From assembly GCA_024278555.1 (NCBI GenBank), contig JAJRSX010000123.1, positions 1 through 14,728 on the forward strand: a stretch of 14,728 bases of DNA. The letters are read 5' to 3'. Source of the stretch: a bacterium. Lineage in GTDB: Bacteria > CG2-30-53-67 > CG2-30-70-394. Each line of letters opens with the position of its first letter. Position 1 is the stretch's first letter. The notes beneath the pieces are model-generated. The model was not told the origin of the DNA. It searched no databases and saw only the letters and a list, made by a program, of their open reading frames with translations. Below, one piece after another: positions 8,161 through 14,608 of this stretch. Made by a program: the position numbers and the translations under genes.

Positions 8161-8307
8161 TTCAGCGGTCAGCTTTCAGCGGCGGCACCGAGGAGACGAT
8201 GGCAGCACGGGTGAGGCAAGTGACCATCGCGATCCCCGGCGCCTCTCCTGGCCGCCGGATTCACGGATCCTCATAGGCTAACCGCTGAGAGCTGAGAGCT
8301 GAGAGCT
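8161..8307. repeat. Foldback element A with inverted GCTGAGA-type heptamer arrays
   Basis: The left arm is three 7-nt units (TTCAGCG, GTCAGCT, TTCAGCG, 8161-8181). The right arm is three perfect GCTGAGA units (8284-8304) plus GCT, in opposite orientation; both share the core GCTGA on one strand. Nested inside are GGCGGC (8181-8186)/GCCGCC (8251-8256), AGGAGA (8191-8196)/TCTCCT (8244-8249) and CGATGG (8197-8202)/CCATCG (8224-8229). The whole 147 bp is therefore an imperfect palindrome. It fills most of the dnaB-alr gap, and its right end contains the dnaB stop codon (8306-8308). Confidence 0.6.
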
Positions 8308-9658
8308 ATTGTGGCTGCCCGTACTCGAAGGCCTCGGAGGTGAAGCGGGCGTAGCGGCGCACGAACCACAGCTCCGCCTTGCCCACCGGGCCGTTGCGGT
8401 GCTTGGCGATGATCAGGTCGGTGGGCCAGGCGTCGGCGTCCTCCTCCATCTTGTCCGGGTCGCGGTGGAGGAAGAGGACCACGTCGGCGTCCTGCTCGAT
8501 GGCGCCTGACTCCCGCAGGTGGGAGAGCTTCGGCCCGCCGGTGGCCTCCTCCACCCGCCGGCTGAGCTGCGCCAGGGCGATCACCGGCACGTTGAGCTCC
8601 TTGGCCAGGGCCTTCAACGAGCGGGAGATCTCACCGATCTCCAGGTCGCGCCGCTCGGCGCGGTGGTTGCCGCGCATGAGCTGGAGGTAGTCGACGATGA
8701 TCAGATCGCAGCCGTGCTCCTGCTTCAGCCGCCGCGCCCGGGCGCGCATCTCCAGGGGCGACAGGGTGGCGGAGTCGTCGATGAAGATCTGCGCCTGGCT
8801 CAGGGACGATGCCGCGTTGGTCGCCGCGGTCCACGCCTCCCTCGGGATCGCCCCGGTGCGCACCTGGTGGGCGTCGATCTCCGCCTCCGCGCACAGCATG
8901 CGCAGGGTGAGCTGGAGGCTCGACATCTCCAGGGAGAAGAAGGCCACCTTGGCGCCGTGACGCACCGCCGCGTTAGCGGCGATGTTCAGGCCGAAGGCGG
9001 TCTTCCCCACCGACGGACGGGCCGCGAGGATGATCAGGTCCGATTTCTGAAAGCCGAGGAGTTTGTGGTCGAGGTCGTCGTAGCCGCTCGGGATGCCGGA
9101 GAGGGTCTTGCCGCGGCGACCCATCTCTTCGAGGGAGGTAAAGGCGTCCTTCACCAGCGGCTTCATCCCCACAAAGCCGCTCGTCGCCCCCTCATCGCTG
9201 AGGGTGAAGAGCTGCTGCTGGGCCCGATCGAGGATCTCCCCCGGCGTCTGCCGCCCCTCGCAACAGGAGGCGGAGATCTCCTGCGCCGCCCCGAGCATCC
9301 GCCGGAGCTGGTGCTTCTCGCGGACGATCTCTGCGTGGTGGCGGATGTTCCCCGCCGAGGCGACCGCCGCGGTGAGCTCCGCCAGATAGGCCGCCCCCCC
9401 CACCTCGCCGAGGACCCCCTCGTGGGTGAGGGCCTCGGTAAGGGTGAGCTCATCGATCGGCTCCCCCTTCGCCCCAAGGCGGGACATCGCCTCGAAGATG
9501 TGGCGGTGGGCGCGGGCGGAAAAGTGGTCGGCGCGGACCACCTCCAGCGCCGTGTAGAGCGCCTCGTTGTGCCACAAGACCGCCCCGAGGACCGCCCGCT
9601 CCGCCTCCAGACTGCGCGGCTGGGCCGCCTTCACCGGACTCTGTTCCACCGTCTCCAT
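8306..9658 (-). CDS. dnaB: Replicative DNA helicase DnaB
   Basis: The protein has 450 residues, full length for DnaB, the hexameric 5'-3' helicase that moves ahead of the replisome. The N-terminal primase-interacting domain covers about residues 15-120 (LEAERAVLGAVL, NIRHHAEIVREK). The RecA-like domain follows: Walker A ARPSVGKT (213-220; Val where Met is usual), FSLEM (241-245), Walker B IVDYLQLM (321-328), then ALAQLSRRVE and LRESGAIEQDADVVLFLHR. No intein interrupts it. The ATG at 9658 is preceded by GGGTGATC, which matches the 3' part of the extended Shine-Dalgarno sequence and is well spaced. An intrinsic terminator sits only 13 nt upstream of the start. Its TAG stop lies in the heptamer array of element A. 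It is probably cotranscribed with alr. Confidence 0.97.
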   Translation of the reverse strand: METVEQSPVKAAQPRSLEAERAVLGAVLWHNEALYTALEVVRADHFSARAHRHIFEAMSRLGAKGEPIDELTLTEALTHEGVLGEVGGAAYLAELTAAVASAGNIRHHAEIVREKHQLRRMLGAAQEISASCCEGRQTPGEILDRAQQQLFTLSDEGATSGFVGMKPLVKDAFTSLEEMGRRGKTLSGIPSGYDDLDHKLLGFQKSDLIILAARPSVGKTAFGLNIAANAAVRHGAKVAFFSLEMSSLQLTLRMLCAEAEIDAHQVRTGAIPREAWTAATNAASSLSQAQIFIDDSATLSPLEMRARARRLKQEHGCDLIIVDYLQLMRGNHRAERRDLEIGEISRSLKALAKELNVPVIALAQLSRRVEEATGGPKLSHLRESGAIEQDADVVLFLHRDPDKMEEDADAWPTDLIIAKHRNGPVGKAELWFVRRYARFTSEAFEYGQPQ

Positions 9659-9671
9659 CGACGATCACCCG

Positions 9672-9708
9672 AAAAAAAGGACCCCCCGGCGGAGCTCGCC
9701 GGGGGGTC
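9672..9708 (-). terminator. Intrinsic terminator between rplI and dnaB
   Basis: On the minus strand a perfect 12-bp stem, GACCCCCCGGCG and CGCCGGGGGGTC with a 5-nt loop, is followed by C and seven T (9678-9672). This is a textbook Rho-independent terminator for the rplI transcript. It ends 13 nt before the dnaB start, so dnaB must be expressed by partial readthrough or from a promoter within rplI. Confidence 0.92.
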
Positions 9709-9738
9709 TCGAAGATAAGCCGGAAACGGCCCGATCCG

Positions 9739-10308
9739 CTACTCGGTCGCCGCCTCGGTGGCCACCGCCTCCGCTGCCTCCGGAGCCTCGGCCTCCGCCG
9801 CCGCAACCTCGGCGCTCTCCCCACCCTCGCCATCGACCGCCTCCGCCTCGGCGGGCGCCTCGGCGCTCACCACCACCTTCACCGTCGCCACCACCCGCTG
9901 CGGCAGACGGACCTCCACCGTGGTCTCGCCCACCTCCTTGATCGGGGCGGCGAGGGAGATCTTGCGCCGCTCGATGTCGAAGCCACGCGCCGCGAGCTCG
10001 CGGGCGATATCGATGGTGGTCACCGCGCCGTAGAGGGTGCCGGACTCGCCGACCCGCTCGACAAACTCGAGCTCCTGGGCGCCGAGGTTCTTCGCAAGGT
10101 CCTCGGACTCGAGACGGATGCGCTTCATCTTCTCCGCCACGATCCGCTTGTGGTGCTCCATCTGACGCAGGCTGCCGCGTGTTGCGAGGACGGCAACACC
10201 CTTGGGGATCAAGAAGTTACGACCGTAGCCACGCTTCACCGTGACCACATCGCCCATCTCACCGAGGTGGTCCACCGCATCCATCAACAAGACCTGCATC
10301 GTCGCCAT
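9739..10308 (-). CDS. rplI: 50S ribosomal protein bL9 with acidic Ala/Glu tail
   Basis: The protein has 189 residues. The first ~148 match bL9: the N-terminal rRNA-binding domain (VVTVKRGYGRNFLIPKGVAV, 21-40), the long connecting helix (about 45-80), and the C-terminal domain (GTLYGAVTTIDIARELAARGFDIERRKISL). Residues ~149-189 are an extra tail made almost only of Ala, Glu, Pro, Gly and Val. Such tails occur in some L9 proteins and are probably disordered. The start is ATG 10308, with TAGGAG 9 nt upstream. A second ATG at 10299 would give the commoner MQV start but is too far from the ribosome-binding site. A promoter lies at 10360-10389. The usual partners rpsF and rpsR are not upstream. It ends in TAG, followed by the terminator. 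Confidence 0.96.
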   Translation of the reverse strand: MATMQVLLMDAVDHLGEMGDVVTVKRGYGRNFLIPKGVAVLATRGSLRQMEHHKRIVAEKMKRIRLESEDLAKNLGAQELEFVERVGESGTLYGAVTTIDIARELAARGFDIERRKISLAAPIKEVGETTVEVRLPQRVVATVKVVVSAEAPAEAEAVDGEGGESAEVAAAEAEAPEAAEAVATEAATE

Positions 10309-10324
10309 GGCTCAAGACTCCTAC

Positions 10325-10337
10325 GCCCGCAGCGGGC
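10325..10337 (-). promoter_or_regulatory. Small leader hairpin beside the rplI ribosome-binding site
   Basis: GCCCG-CTG-CGGGC in minus sense (10337-10325) lies in the predicted 45-nt rplI leader, one base before the TAGGAG ribosome-binding site. It could affect ribosome access. I recognise no known ribosomal-protein leader motif in it. Confidence 0.3.
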
Positions 10338-10359
10338 CGTTTCGCACAAAGGGGGCGAG

Positions 10360-10389
10360 AGGATAGGGATGGGACTCCCCGCGGGTCAA
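10360..10389 (-). promoter_or_regulatory. Sigma-70-type promoter of rplI
   Basis: On the minus strand TTGACC (10389-10384) and TATCCT (10365-10360) are separated by 18 nt, matching the consensus 5 of 6 and 4 of 6. The predicted start of transcription near 10353 gives a leader of about 45 nt. This is the best promoter match in the window and fits a monocistronic rplI transcript ending at 9672. Confidence 0.6.
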
Positions 10390-10661
10390 GGAAAAGGCAC
10401 CGGGTGACGGCGGCGCCAGCCGCGCCATCTTTTGGCTTGGCCGCCTTGCCGGGCCGAGGGGACGTCTGCCCCCCCAGGCCATTCCCCCCTCTGCGTCTCC
10501 GCGCCGCTGCGCGAGGATCCACCCGACGATGAGCATCCCCCTAGGGTTGACCTCACGCGGCGATGGAGGAAGATCGCTCGGCGTCGTCACCGCGACGATG
10601 TGAGTCACAATCAAGAGAGCACCCGTCTCGACCGACACGGAGAGAAGCACGGGAGCGCCCA
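10390..10661. other. Divergent intergenic region between rplI and the zinc-ribbon gene
   Basis: Together with the rplI leader this is a 353-nt gene-free stretch. It holds the rplI promoter at its left end, a single copy of the CTCTGCGTCTCC repeat at 10489-10500 running into GCGCCGCTGCGCGAGG, a possible weak promoter and palindrome for the plus-strand gene (10584-10611), and its ribosome-binding site (GGGAG, 10651-10655). Frames crossing it are low-complexity and have no ribosome-binding site, so I call no gene. Confidence 0.45.
10584..10611 (+). promoter_or_regulatory. Candidate promoter with TGTGA-G-TCACA palindrome
   Basis: TCGTCA (10584-10589) and CACAAT (10606-10611) are 16 nt apart, each 4 of 6 to the sigma-70 consensus. 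A perfect palindrome, TGTGAGTCACA (10599-10609), overlaps the -10, a typical repressor position. Transcription would start near 10618, giving a leader of about 44 nt. The match is weak and the palindrome short, so this is only a candidate. Confidence 0.3.
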
Positions 10662-11189
10662 ATGGCCCAAGCTGTGACCGACAAAATTAGCCTTCACCAC
10701 GACGAGGAGATCGTCGACGCCGTCCGTGTCCGCCTGGTGGTCAACAAGCTGATCGCCCAGGATGGCCGCCTCTACCTCACCAACCGGCGAATCATCTTTT
10801 CACCGAGTGGTCTGGTGGACCGGGCGGTAGGGGCGGTAGAGATCAGCGTCTACCTCCCCCATGTACGCGACATCAGCGTCGAGGAGAACGCCCTCACCCT
10901 CCAGTCGCGCACCCGCGTCTACCGGTTCGACGGCAAGCAGGTCGACCTCTTCGCCGAGCAGGCCCAGGCCATCCTCAACGCCCCCGACAAGTGTGTCGAC
11001 GACGACTGCCTGGAAGAGGAGACCCGGACCACCGCCACCTCCTGCCCCACCTGCAAGCAGGCGGTACGCTCCGACTTCATCTACTGCCCCTACTGTCAGG
11101 AGCAGCTCATCTCCCCGGTCTGCCCCCACTGCCACCGATCTGTGGAGGAGGCGTGGACCTTCTGCCCGAGCTGCCGCTGCGCCCTGTGA
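10662..11189 (+). CDS. GRAM-like protein with two C-terminal zinc ribbons
   Basis: The protein has 175 residues and probably is cytoplasmic, with no signal or membrane segment. Residues ~15-105 resemble a GRAM/PH-like domain: DGRLYLTNRRIIFSPSG (the characteristic core strand pair), a predicted loop, then VYLPHVRDISVEENALTLQ and a closing helix. Residues 128-171 hold two zinc ribbons with identical spacing: Cys128/131 with Cys142/145, and Cys154/157 with Cys168/171 (CPxC, ten residues, CPxC in each). Further cysteines are at 111, 116 and 173. The function is unknown. The combination suggests a lipid- or protein-binding adaptor. The ATG at 10662 is preceded by GGGAG at a 6-nt spacing. The frame is open 33 codons further up without a ribosome-binding site. 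It stands alone between rplI (divergent) and foldback element B. Confidence 0.88.
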   Translation: MAQAVTDKISLHHDEEIVDAVRVRLVVNKLIAQDGRLYLTNRRIIFSPSGLVDRAVGAVEISVYLPHVRDISVEENALTLQSRTRVYRFDGKQVDLFAEQAQAILNAPDKCVDDDCLEEETRTTATSCPTCKQAVRSDFIYCPYCQEQLISPVCPHCHRSVEEAWTFCPSCRCAL

Positions 11190-11199
11190 GGGATTAGCA

Positions 11200-11370
11200 G
11201 AAAGTAGAAAGTAGAAAGTAGAAAGGGGACGCTCTTCTCGAAGGATGGTGGCGACCCCGCCGCACAAGAGGGCTGGAGGTCGCTGGCAGCGGGCACCCTT
11301 TTCGAGGAAGGGCACTGTCCCCGCCATACGCCCCCGAAGCCGCCCCCTTTCTACCTTCTACTTTCTACTT
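11200..11370. repeat. Foldback element B with inverted AAAGTAG-type heptamer arrays
   Basis: The left arm is three perfect AAAGTAG units (11201-11221) plus AAAG. The right arm is CTTTCTA, CCTTCTA, CTTTCTA (11347-11367), the same unit inverted. Nested inside are GGGGAC (11225-11230)/GTCCCC (11317-11322), CTCGAAGG (11237-11244)/CCTTTTCGAG (11297-11306) and GCGACC (11251-11256)/GGTCGC (11278-11283). The whole 171 bp is one long imperfect palindrome. It occupies nearly the entire gap between the zinc-ribbon gene (stop 11189) and nadD (start 11385). Confidence 0.65.
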
Positions 11371-11384
11371 CCCCCCCTCCCCCC

Positions 11385-12002
11385 TTGTCCCCCCGCGACT
11401 GCTACTTCGGCGGTACCTTCGACCCGGTCCACACCGGCCACCTGGCGATCGCCGCCGCCGCCCTGGCCACGGACGAGGTGGCGCGGGTCATCTTCCTCCC
11501 CGCCGCGACGCCGCCGCACAAGGGGGGACGGTCGCTACGCCCGTTTGCGGAACGGCTCCACCTCCTGCAGCTCGCCTGCGGAGACGACCCGCGCCTGGCG
11601 GCGAGCCCGCTGGAGGCGGATCTCCCCGCCCCGTCGTTCACCGCCCGTACCCTGGAGCTGCTCGTCGGCCGCGGCGCGCCCCGACCCATCCTGCTGCTCA
11701 TGGGGGCGGACACCCTTCTCGACCTACCCAACTGGTACCGACCGGAGCGGGTGGTCGAGCTCGCCCGCCTCCTCGTCGCCCCGCGACCGGGGGTGGCGCC
11801 GGAGCAGCTCCGTGCCGCCACCAGAGCGCTCCTCCCCGGCGACACCTTCGACCGCCATGTCCGTCTCCTGCAGATGGCGCCGGTAGCCTGCTCCGCCACC
11901 GAGATCCGCGGCCTGCTGGCGCGCGGCCTTGACCCGGGTGCGTTGCTGCCAGAACCTGTGCGCGCTTATCTCCTCGGCACCCCCCCTCCGGAGGCAGGTT
12001 GA
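11385..12002 (+). CDS. nadD: Nicotinate-nucleotide adenylyltransferase
   Basis: The protein has 205 residues, the normal NadD size. It transfers AMP from ATP to nicotinate mononucleotide in NAD synthesis. The nucleotidyltransferase signature is intact: GGTFDPVHTGH (9-19) with HxGH at 16-19, then LPAATPPHKGG (38-48), LLLMGADTLLDLPNWYRP (103-120) and the C-terminal ATEIRGLLARG. The start is TTG 11385. It places the GGTFDP block at the usual distance from the N-terminus, and no ATG or GTG lies upstream in frame. There is no ribosome-binding site: the preceding bases are a C-rich tract directly after the heptamer array of element B. rsfS, a common partner downstream of nadD, is not here. The TGA stop overlaps the TTG start of the next gene. 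Confidence 0.94.
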   Translation: MSPRDCYFGGTFDPVHTGHLAIAAAALATDEVARVIFLPAATPPHKGGRSLRPFAERLHLLQLACGDDPRLAASPLEADLPAPSFTARTLELLVGRGAPRPILLLMGADTLLDLPNWYRPERVVELARLLVAPRPGVAPEQLRAATRALLPGDTFDRHVRLLQMAPVACSATEIRGLLARGLDPGALLPEPVRAYLLGTPPPEAG

Positions 12003-12316
12003 GCCCCTTCGCCGCCCCCTCCCCACCCACCCGATCCTGGGTTCACCCTCTGCTGCTCGGGGTGACCGTGGGCGCGGCAGTGCTGATGGTCGTCCTCGCC
12101 CTGGCCGACGAGAACGGGATCCTGCCGCGCCGTGCCAAGGCGCGCGAGATCGCCGCCATGCGCGCCACCGTCGCCCGCCTGCAGACGGAACAAAAGGAGC
12201 TGGAGGAGCGCCTCGACAACCTCGCCGGCGGCCGCTTCGAGATGGAGCGCATCGCCCGCGAACGGCTGGGGCTGGTACGCAAAGGCGAGCTCATTTACCG
12301 CTTCGACGGGCGGTAG
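11999..12316 (+). CDS. ftsB: FtsB/DivIC-family septum formation protein
   Basis: The protein has 105 residues, with the layout of FtsB/DivIC, the small bitopic division protein that works with FtsL and FtsQ. A short cytoplasmic N-terminus is followed by one membrane helix (about 17-36, PLLLGVTVGAAVLMVVLALA), then a periplasmic coiled coil (about 46-78, IAAMRATVARLQTEQKELEE) and the typical ending ERLGLVRKGELIYRF (88-102). The start is TTG at 11999, overlapping the nadD stop as TTGA, with GGAGG (11990-11994) 4 nt upstream inside nadD. Translation is therefore probably coupled. FtsB often sits next to eno; here it is paired with nadD. FtsB and DivIC cannot be told apart by eye. It ends in TAG. 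Confidence 0.88.
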   Translation: MSPFAAPSPPTRSWVHPLLLGVTVGAAVLMVVLALADENGILPRRAKAREIAAMRATVARLQTEQKELEERLDNLAGGRFEMERIARERLGLVRKGELIYRFDGR

Positions 12317-12327
12317 ATAAACGGCCT

Positions 12328-12540
12328 CACCACGGAGGACACGGGGGACGTAGGGGGCAGGAGGGACCGGAGAATTCCCGGCGCGAACGCGGCTTCCCCG
12401 CATTGCCGGATTCGCTGGACCCGTCACCCGCCGCAGCCCCCCCGTCGTTGTACGAAGACAGGAAACCACCCACGCCGCCACGGATAGGGAGCGCACCCAA
12501 CCCCCTATGCCCCCAAAGCTTCCCCGTGTCCCCCGTGGTG
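12328..12540. repeat. Foldback element C with inverted nonamer arms (CACGGAGGA type)
   Basis: The left arm (12328-12359) begins CACCACGGAGGACACGGGGG and reads as 9-nt units CACGGAGGA, CACGGGGGA, CGTAGGGGG. The right arm (12508-12540) is its inverted copy, with about 28 of 32 positions matching (reading CACCACGGGGGACACGGGG on the minus strand). They flank about 148 bp with no ORF that looks coding. The element fills the convergent gap between ftsB (ends 12316) and typA (stop at 12573). No conventional terminator is seen in this gap, so the element itself may serve both genes. Confidence 0.55.
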
Positions 12541-12572
12541 CAAGCGGTCTACTCCCGCGGTAGCGCGACCCG

Positions 12573-14375
12573 TTACCGGGCGCTGGCGGAAAGCTCCCGT
12601 TTGCGCAGGCGGATCGATTTGGGGGTCACCTCCACCGCCTCGTCATCGGTGATGAACTCGATGGCCCGCTCCAGGGTGATCGGCTGCACCGGCGCCAGGA
12701 GGATGTTGTCGTCGCGGCCGGAGGCCCGCATGTTGGTGAGCTTCTTCATCTTGCACGGGTTGACGATCAGGTCGCGGTCGCGGCTGTGCTCGCCGATCAC
12801 CATGCCGCGATAGACCACATCCCCCGGACCGATGAACAGGGTGCCGCGCGGTTCCAGGTGGAAGAGGGCGTAGGCGACCGCGTCGCCGTTGCGATCGGCG
12901 ACCAGGGAGCCGGTGAGGCGGGAGGGGAAGTCGCCACGGTACGGCTCGTAGCCGTCGAGGTAGGCGTTGAGGATGCCGCTGCCGCGGGTATCGGTGAGGA
13001 ACTCGTTGCGGTAGCCGATCAGGCCGCGCGACGGGATCGAGTACTCCATCCGCACCCGGCCGGTGCCGTGGTTCACCAGGTTGAGCATCCGTCCCTTGCG
13101 CAGGGCGAGCTTCTCGCTCACCACCCCGATGAGCGGCTCCGGGCAGTCGACGAAGAGTCGCTCGATCGGCTCCAGCCGCTGCCCCCCCTCCTCCCTGTAG
13201 ATGATCTGCGGCCGGCCGACGGTGAGCTCGAACCCCTCACGGCGCATCGTCTCGATGAGGATCGCCATCTGCAGCTCGCCGCGCCCCTTCACCAGGATCG
13301 AGTCGTCCGGCTGCTCCTCCACCTGGATGGCGACATTCTGCAGCGTCTCCTTGTGGAGCCGCTCGCGGATCTTGCGTGCCTGGACGATCGTCCCCTCGCG
13401 GCCGGCGAGCGGTGAGGTGTTGGCACCGAAGCGCATCGCCACGGTCGGCTCGTCGACGCTGATCCGCGGCAAGGCGCGCGGCTGCTCGCGGGTGCAGATG
13501 GTGTCGCCGATCTCCACCTCGTCGATCCCCGCCAGGATGGCGATCTCCCCCGGCCCCACCCCGCTCACCTGCCGGATCTCCAGGCCGTCGTACACCTGCA
13601 GGCGGGTCACCCTGAGCGGCCGGTTGGCGCCAGCCTCGCCGACGCACACCAGGGCGTCGGACTCGTGCGCCCTACCGTGGACCACCCGCCCGATGGCGAG
13701 CCTGCCGAGGTAATCGGAGTAGTCGAGGTTGGCGACCCGCATCTGGAACGGCTCCGCCGGATCGTAGCGCGGCGGCGGCACCGCCTTGACGATGGTGTCG
13801 AAGAGGAGGGTGAGGTCACCCATCTCGTCCTCCATCGACCCCTTGCAGGTGCCATCGCGGCCGATGGCATAGATGACCGGGAACTCGATCTGCTCGTCGC
13901 TCGCACCGAGATCGATGAACAGGTCGTAGATCTCATCGAGCACCTCCGCCGGGCGGGCGTCGGCGCGGTCGATCTTGTTCAACACCACCACCATCGCCAG
14001 GCGCATCTCCAGCGCCTTGGCCAGCACGAAGCGGGTCTGCGGCAGGGGGCCCTCCGCCGCGTCCACCAGCAGGATCGCCCCGTCCACCATGGAGAGCGCC
14101 CGCTCCACCTCGCCGCCGAAGTCTGCGTGGCCCGGGGTATCGAGGATATTGATCTTCACCTCGTGCCACACCACCGAGCAGTTCTTCGCCGAGATGGTGA
14201 TCCCGCGCTCCCGCTCCAGCTCCATCGAGTCCATCGCCCGCTCTTGCATCCGCCGCCCCTGCCCGACGGCGCCGGACTGGCGGAACATCTGGTCCACCAG
14301 GGTCGTCTTGCCATGGTCGACGTGGGCGATGATGGCGATATTGCGAAGCTCAGGGGTCTCGGCGGGGGGAATCAC
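12573..14375 (-). CDS. typA: Ribosome-associated translational GTPase TypA/BipA
   Basis: The protein has 600 residues, full length for TypA/BipA, an EF-G-like GTPase that binds the ribosome and helps 50S assembly and stress adaptation. The GTPase motifs are G1 AHVDHGKTT (17-25), G2 RGIT (57-60), G3 DTPGH (79-83) in [14 protein letters not shown], and G4 NKID (133-136). TypA-specific blocks follow: [41 protein letters not shown] and [20 protein letters not shown]. The C-terminal domain reads [22 protein letters not shown]. The frame is open 64 codons upstream. I chose GTG 14375 because GAGG lies 6 nt before it and [21 protein letters not shown] is the family N-terminus. It ends in TAA, the only TAA in the window. 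A possible promoter lies at 14403-14408. Confidence 0.96.
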
Positions 14376-14402
14376 GGCATACCTCGAAGGAAGGGGGCGG
14401 GC

Positions 14403-14408
14403 ATTATC
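14403..14408 (-). promoter_or_regulatory. Candidate -10 of typA
   Basis: GATAAT in minus sense (14408-14403), preceded by TG, matches the -10 consensus in five of six bases. It lies 28 nt before the GTG start, enough for a short leader with the ribosome-binding site. The -35 region is poor (TCTGGC at 18 nt), so only the -10 is offered. Confidence 0.35.
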
Positions 14409-14448
14409 CACGCGCGGCGCCCGTGGGCCAGAGGCCACGGCACAAAAC

Positions 14449-14608
14449 CACGAAGGGCACGAAGAGCACGAAGAGGGAGGTGGAGCGGGACCTCGGTGGC
14501 GCCAGGAGCGAGGGAGCCGGTTCGAAGAGATCCTGTTGGTAGCACCGGCAAGTGATCGCCCCTCCATGATCTCCCTTGCCGCTCTCCGTGCCCTCCGTGT
14601 CTTCCATG
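14449..14608. repeat. Foldback element D with inverted nonamer arrays (CACGAAGAG type)
   Basis: The left arm is three 9-nt units, CACGAAGGG, CACGAAGAG, CACGAAGAG (14449-14475). The right arm (14582-14608) is CTCTCCGTG, CCCTCCGTG, TCTTCCATG, the same unit class inverted. Nested inside are GCGAGGGAG (14508-14516)/CTCCCTTGC (14571-14579; 8 of 9) and GCCGGT (14516-14521)/ACCGGC (14544-14549). The 160-bp element lies about 75 nt upstream of the typA start, in its 5' flank. Confidence 0.55.

Follow-up and report, generated by a model that had tools for sequence, protein, structure and literature searches.

Intergenic foldback elements with inverted tandem-unit arms in a bacterial contig and their probable kinship to gene-bearing mobile elements

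The window analyzed here is the whole stretch of 14,728 nucleotides that makes up contig JAJRSX010000123.1 (assembly GCA_024278555.1), from a bacterium of the lineage CG2-30-53-67. Four of its intergenic spacers hold foldback elements, in which two arrays of short tandem units face each other in opposite orientation. These are probably non-autonomous elements of the kind known as miniature inverted-repeat transposable elements (MITEs), related to intergenic mobile elements that carry one of two small genes, encoding either an intervening-sequence protein (IVP) or a GxxExxY protein. There is good support for their having dispersed as mobile elements; how they move is something that we infer. 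The arrays are genuine, occur widely, and have more than local interest. The original prediction, made from the window alone, had recognized the inverted arms and suggested mobile units, but it overlooked that the arms are accounted for by sister elements with protein genes, as well as the division of the four spacers into two classes.

Architecture of the four spacer elements

Each of the four spacers contains inverted arms of short tandem units, as predicted; they were analyzed with an inverted-repeat search, the program Tandem Repeats Finder (TRF), and folding calculations. The common plan holds throughout, but the single family originally proposed separates into a 7-nt class (elements A and B) and a 9-nt class (elements C and D). 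Neither class has an assigned strand in the window. Element A (8161–8307) occupies the alr–dnaB spacer and on its right abuts the dnaB stop codon. Its left arm spans 8161–8182 (TTCAGCGGTCAGCTTTCAGC...), and its right arm coincides with a TRF array of GCTGAGA in 3.4 copies at 8284–8307. Element B (11196–11372), flanked by a zinc-ribbon gene on one side and nadD on the other, has arms at 11196–11231 (AGAAAGT, 3.9 copies) and 11341–11372. It provides the longest inverted repeat of the window among pairs no more than 400 bp apart (11202–11231 with 11341–11370; 30 nt, 93% complementary), and TRF places AGAAAGT-type arrays at 11199–11225 (3.9 copies) and 11347–11370 (3.4 copies). The second-longest such repeat (30 nt, 80%) is formed by the arms of element C (12328–12540), which occupies the convergent spacer between an ftsB-like gene and typA. 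These arms lie at 12328–12357 and 12511–12540, the former built of CACGGAGGA, which TRF reports in 2.1 copies at 12331–12349. Element D (14449–14608), upstream of typA, has its left arm at 14449–14475, a TRF array of CACGAAGAG in 3.0 copies, and its right arm at about 14581–14608.

When folded with RNA parameters, all four elements were more stable than dinucleotide shuffles, with z-scores of −4.6 for A, −5.2 for B, −2.7 for C, and −2.6 for D, the advantage being modest for C and D. With their short length, terminal inverted repeats, and gene-free interior, the window elements have the makeup of MITEs. Remnants of IVP or GxxExxY coding sequence were looked for inside the four elements and none is left, an Rfam scan of the window gave no match (rRNA included), and a plasmid search with the window as query returned weak coding matches only. 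The prediction that no protein gene lies inside therefore stands for these four, but not for their sister elements with like arms.

Gene-bearing sister elements

The genome contains two IVP genes (PF05635/TIGR02436, the 23S rRNA intervening-sequence protein), both enclosed by inverted heptamer arms. In one of them (L062), GTAGAAAGTAGGAAGTAGAAAGGGGG faces its complement at 96% across 333 nt, and its unit is that of window element B; the arms around the other are of the GGGATGG type. Four GxxExxY genes (PF13366/TIGR04256) are likewise all enclosed, here by inverted 9-nt-type arms, of which one pair is 31 nt long with zero mismatches and another 39 nt long with a score of 36, beside two others. 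All six IVP and GxxExxY genes of the genome thus sit within inverted tandem-unit arms. One further detail concerns L130 (G000:C22), where a frameshift-split GxxExxY gene keeps 39-nt arms with one or two mismatches only. Separately, convergent CACGAAG arms at a distance of 1.1 kb from each other flank a MntA/HepT type VII toxin–antitoxin pair (L088, 7750–8926); this single case is perhaps a third cargo.

To our knowledge, no settled function has been assigned to either IVP (TIGR02436) or GxxExxY (TIGR04256). In the latter, D67, E77, and K79 are invariant among five aligned members, which fits the PD-(D/E)XK fold named by Pfam, and the protein is a predicted nuclease of that type; no solved relative was found by sequence. 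Solved relatives of IVP include 2gsc, which is Xanthomonas XCC0516, and 2rld. IVP also resembles Avd, from diversity-generating retroelements (DGRs), but weakly, the E-value of 1.5e-7 falling below the model cut-off.

Unit length and cargo across phyla

The link between array unit and enclosed gene recurs well beyond this genome. Within the phylum, sampled by eight genomes, period-7 arms surround 9 of 11 IVP loci (scores 11–23, a few of them near chance), and 9-nt-type arms surround 9 of 11 GxxExxY loci, while the arm score of NadD control flanks never exceeds 11. Across phyla, arms were called at a score of at least 14, with permuted flank pairs as background. On this basis, 59 of 80 IVP loci from many phyla have inverted arms, against 1.65% of permuted pairs, and the period is 7 in 54 of those 59. 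GxxExxY loci from another phylum have arms in 21 of 29 cases, against 7.6%, with periods mostly of 8, 9, or 10 and the cores CACAGAG, CGCAGAG, CACGAAT, or CGCCGAT; in the 8–10-nt class generally, cores such as CACAGAG, CGCAGAG, and CACGAAG are found. Diverse as the IVP heptamers are, they can be aligned in one phase around an invariant G, mostly as AG with T or G next, better than shuffled units can. Because unit length tracks cargo, elements A and B are assigned to the IVP type and elements C and D to the GxxExxY type.

Seven of the 80 IVP loci gave a single weak match to one short 23S string, a crude test from which most IVP loci appear to lie outside 23S rRNA. Array excess correlates with the presence of GxxExxY across 61 genomes (p = 1e-5, uncorrected for relatedness). 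A search of viral contigs yielded five GxxExxY loci. A genome of another phylum (G039) contains dozens of CACAGAG hairpins whose arms are separated by about 60–110 bp and, among the places listed, almost always converge; they are apparently a minimal gene-less form at high copy number.

Genome-wide counts and polarity

The genome-wide array search proposed in the original prediction found the arrays in large excess: GAAAGTAGAAAGTAG, allowing at most one mismatch, has 42 matches against 0 for the reversed control, and CACGAAGNNCACGAAG has 107 against 1. In 831 kb of the genome, neighboring arrays of the same unit no more than 1.5 kb apart comprise 63 convergent, 9 divergent, and 32 parallel pairs, where the random expectation is 1:1:2; the search patterns overlap, and some arrays are counted twice. 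Inverted pairing, which was to be commoner than direct pairing if the predicted family were real, is therefore in clear excess. The spacings of paired arrays cluster at about 75–220 bp, with more pairs at about 330–420 and 900–1150 bp. In the same 831 kb, most non-coding heptamer pairs carry AAAGTAG or GGGATGG, the units of the two IVP elements, and many arrays are without a partner. A unit-blind search for periodic inverted pairs discriminated weakly (43 inverted against 29 direct, the direct pairs being probably coding tandem repeats for the most part), and consequently the unit-based counts were used instead.

Evidence for movement

Comparison with a genome of the same genus (G001) revealed the empty site that the original prediction had asked for at one of the four positions. 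At element A, 94 bp separate the aligned flanks in G001 against 312 bp here, and a site elsewhere in the genome (L097, 1722–1915) is also empty (32 against 250 bp). The site of element B is occupied in G001, with the arms kept and the interior diverged. The spacer of element C is of similar length there, but the arms are absent, and at element D there is no array in G001, but synteny stops near 14430. Dispersed copies with shared termini, and both occupied and empty sites, are thus found for the class, while within the window the empty site concerns A only.

In a related genome, G006, one family of IVP elements is represented by about nine copies, which have a left or right end in common although their flanks are unrelated. 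Two of these copies are internally deleted, the start of the gene being joined to its 3' end. In the genome under study, a 165-bp family of the 9-nt class comprises eight copies in both orientations with a conserved interior, and elements are found within other elements. An IVP element that this genome and G001 share at the same site (L062/L180) has undergone concerted change, the unit of both arms having passed together from AGTAGAA to AGTAGAC. A tree of IVP intermixes phyla at forks that have support, a reading limited by the small number of columns and by possible paralogues. Taken with the convergent arms, these copies and sites support the earlier idea of MITE-like or foldback-like mobile units.

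Two sequences beside the 9-nt arrays deserve mention. Many of the genome's 9-nt arrays (L104, L091, L128, L074) have GGCCTGGAAGGCG, preceded by GTCACCGGTGG, just outside them at a distance of a few bases, which suggests an outer terminus or a site favored for nesting. GCCTGGAAGGC was considered as a target motif and set aside; its context seems better accommodated by the interior of another array element, that is, by nesting.

Proposed mechanism and points against it

In the mechanism proposed here, the protein of an element (IVP or the predicted nuclease GxxExxY) would act in trans, its target being the repeated units that make up the arm stem. The element would reach intergenic sites by copying, in the form of a single-stranded hairpin folded back on itself. 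During copying, one arm may template the other. If so, both arms are rewritten together, and the unit can drift between elements while the arms stay complementary. Gene-less copies could arise via internal deletion, as seen directly in one relative (G006).

Several observations weigh against this picture. The elements show no association with a transposase, integrase, or reverse transcriptase, and the reverse transcriptase family PF00078 has no match in this genome (G000). G005 and G007, from the same class, have 100 and 55 arrays of the 9-nt type (controls 5 and 4) and no IVP or GxxExxY match; they may have another cargo or have lost a helper. Element B has remained in place since the genus divided, which gives no sign that this copy moved recently. 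The candidate target-site duplications of two complete G006 copies (AATTAAAA and TGATTT) are only a hint. Since the window elements hold no IVP or GxxExxY remnant, descent by deletion is seen in G006 only. Two narrower proposals were rejected: strict trans-dependence of the arrays on GxxExxY is contradicted by G005 and G007, and for a dedicated reverse transcriptase or DGR-like retroelement origin, PF00078 is absent and the likeness to Avd is below cut-off. IVP is not known to be a transposase.

A broader and tentative proposal is that these elements represent a widespread small kind of mobile element, seen so far in fragments such as the intervening sequences (IVSs) of rRNA and the heptamers of Xanthomonas and Beggiatoa. 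The carried protein would set the unit length of the arrays (7 nt for IVP, 8–10 nt for GxxExxY), and the element would move without a classical transposase via a foldback intermediate, one arm templating the other. Frequent enclosure in inverted arrays of protein-specific unit length suggests that IVP and GxxExxY function in recognition of the repeated arm. If this is true, scattered repeats, including 23S rRNA IVSs, G-rich heptamers, and CACAGAG/CACGAAG arrays, join as one kind of mobile element, which is relevant to how IVSs move. Literature searches that covered few subscription papers and no preprints turned up no description of a GxxExxY element class or of any relation of unit length to cargo. 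Nor did such searches find the 9-nt array strings in bacterial papers or a GxxExxY–repeat link, an absence that, with subscription journals and preprints outside the search, is weak evidence.

Alternative explanations

The alternative that survives best, itself unlikely, is that the arms are RNA structures that selection maintains for the host, serving between genes as RNase III sites, in attenuation, or to protect 3' ends, with the small genes as passengers. Such a role would suit the stable folds of the window elements, the complementarity maintained while the unit changes at L062/L180, and the retention of element B in G001 despite its diverged interior. Placement speaks on both sides. From 53 merged elements, 47 lie in spacers defined by a simple codon-usage gene finder, at median distances of 26 nt from a stop codon and 60 nt from a start codon. 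The closeness to stop codons agrees with host structures, and published RNA-seq data from Xanthomonas show transcript starts and ends to be more frequent at heptamer arrays (PMC4692102). However, the spacers are tandem in 37 cases, divergent in 6, and convergent in only 4, and dedicated terminators would favor convergent spacers. The transcription-end structures offered as one option in the original prediction are consequently not the primary nature of the elements, while a secondary effect on transcript ends is possible. Structured RNAs, another option offered there, would be compatible with the findings. Host regulators would also not be expected to leave empty sites in a same-genus genome, to be nested, to occur as dispersed copies with shared ends, or to follow a protein-specific unit length across phyla.

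Less credible still is an origin without mobility, in which tandem slippage and template switching at quasipalindromes build and correct inverted arrays with no protein involved. This would accommodate arms that evolve together, as at L062/L180, the variable repeat number, and the many partnerless arrays. Quasipalindrome correction alone could keep arms alike but would not spread them, and the process leaves unexplained the conserved interior of the dispersed 165-bp family, the copies with shared ends in unrelated flanks in G006, and the same units and cargo genes across phyla.

Very improbable is descent from repetitive extragenic palindromic (REP) elements mobilized by the Y1 transposases of the genome (REP-associated tyrosine transposases, RAYTs): four PF01797 genes are present and REPs are likewise intergenic hairpins of high copy number, but the four RAYT genes (L063–L066) are flanked by a different repeat (TGGGGTCAGG...) without tandem-unit arms.

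Other features of the window

The single-arm relatives noted in the original prediction proved to be solo arrays with 9-nt-class cores, for which no strand is assigned. Right-arm-type arrays at 218–372 (CTCTGCGTCTC..., CCTCTTTGCCTCTTTGCG, and CCTTCGTGG) have no intact partner in view, and a remnant, CTCTGCGTCTCCGCG, lies at 10489–10515. At its start (1–150), the contig has a non-coding leader and then what resembles an IS110-family transposase gene at its 5' end (MKQATTQTIGVDVSDRKSR...); judged by eye, the gene seems to break off within about 25 codons. At 155–180, CTCGGGGTCGGTTCTTTACCTTATAG resembles TGGGGTCAGGTCTTTACCTTATAG, a repeat that flanks RAYT genes of this genome (L065), and may therefore be a RAYT-associated REP. 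The gene for an L9-like ribosomal protein (9739–10308, minus strand) encodes an Ala/Glu-rich tail from a 24-bp tandem repeat (9739–9802).

Comparison with known systems

The non-autonomous foldback elements favored here share their plan with the eukaryotic Foldback (FB) and Galileo elements, which have long terminal inverted repeats of short tandem subrepeats (compare PMC3573991). Those elements are eukaryotic, much longer, and associated with a P-superfamily transposase, and the plan alone is alike. Bacterial MITEs and REPIN/RAYT systems are generally known to be small, intergenic, palindromic, multi-copy, and gene-free, as the window elements are. In contrast, the termini here are tandem arrays whose unit varies between elements, and no transposase terminus was matched.

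Intergenic heptamer arrays have been described in two other settings. The GGGAATC arrays of Xanthomonas are 89–93% intergenic, lie near stop codons, and form 70–75 convergent inverted pairs per genome, all of which recalls the present arrays; unlike these, they are described as G-quadruplex repeats with one unit, no gene inside, and no link to IVP (PMC4692102). The TAACTGA arrays of Beggiatoaceae are intergenic heptamers found in several phyla, for which horizontal spread is suspected (PMC4679880). They differ in that nearly all reported cases are direct repeats located upstream of start codons, with neither an inverted partner nor a link to IVP.

We know of no IVS counterpart of the 9-nt GxxExxY class; the 7-nt class, however, finds its closest likeness in the IVSs of rRNA. 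The 23S rRNA IVS of Coxiella burnetii holds an S23 gene in about 430 nt, with a 28-bp terminal stem and tandem heptamers (GACAGAT) before the gene, and 23S rRNA IVSs are sporadic and horizontally spread (PMC4990558). Elements A and B have the terminal inverted repeats forming a stem and the tandem heptamers, while the S23/IVP four-helix-bundle gene is lacking in all four window elements and present in the sister elements L061/L062. The window elements lie between protein genes and not within a helix of 23S rRNA. In the 7-nt class each of the two arms is an array of heptamers, and many copies are gene-less. Strict membership of the 7-nt class among IVSs consequently fails on location and, for the window elements, also on the missing gene. 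Because the gene-bearing 7-nt elements have the same anatomy as the Coxiella IVS (IVP/S23 gene, stem, and heptamers), the 7-nt class would work like an IVS outside rRNA.

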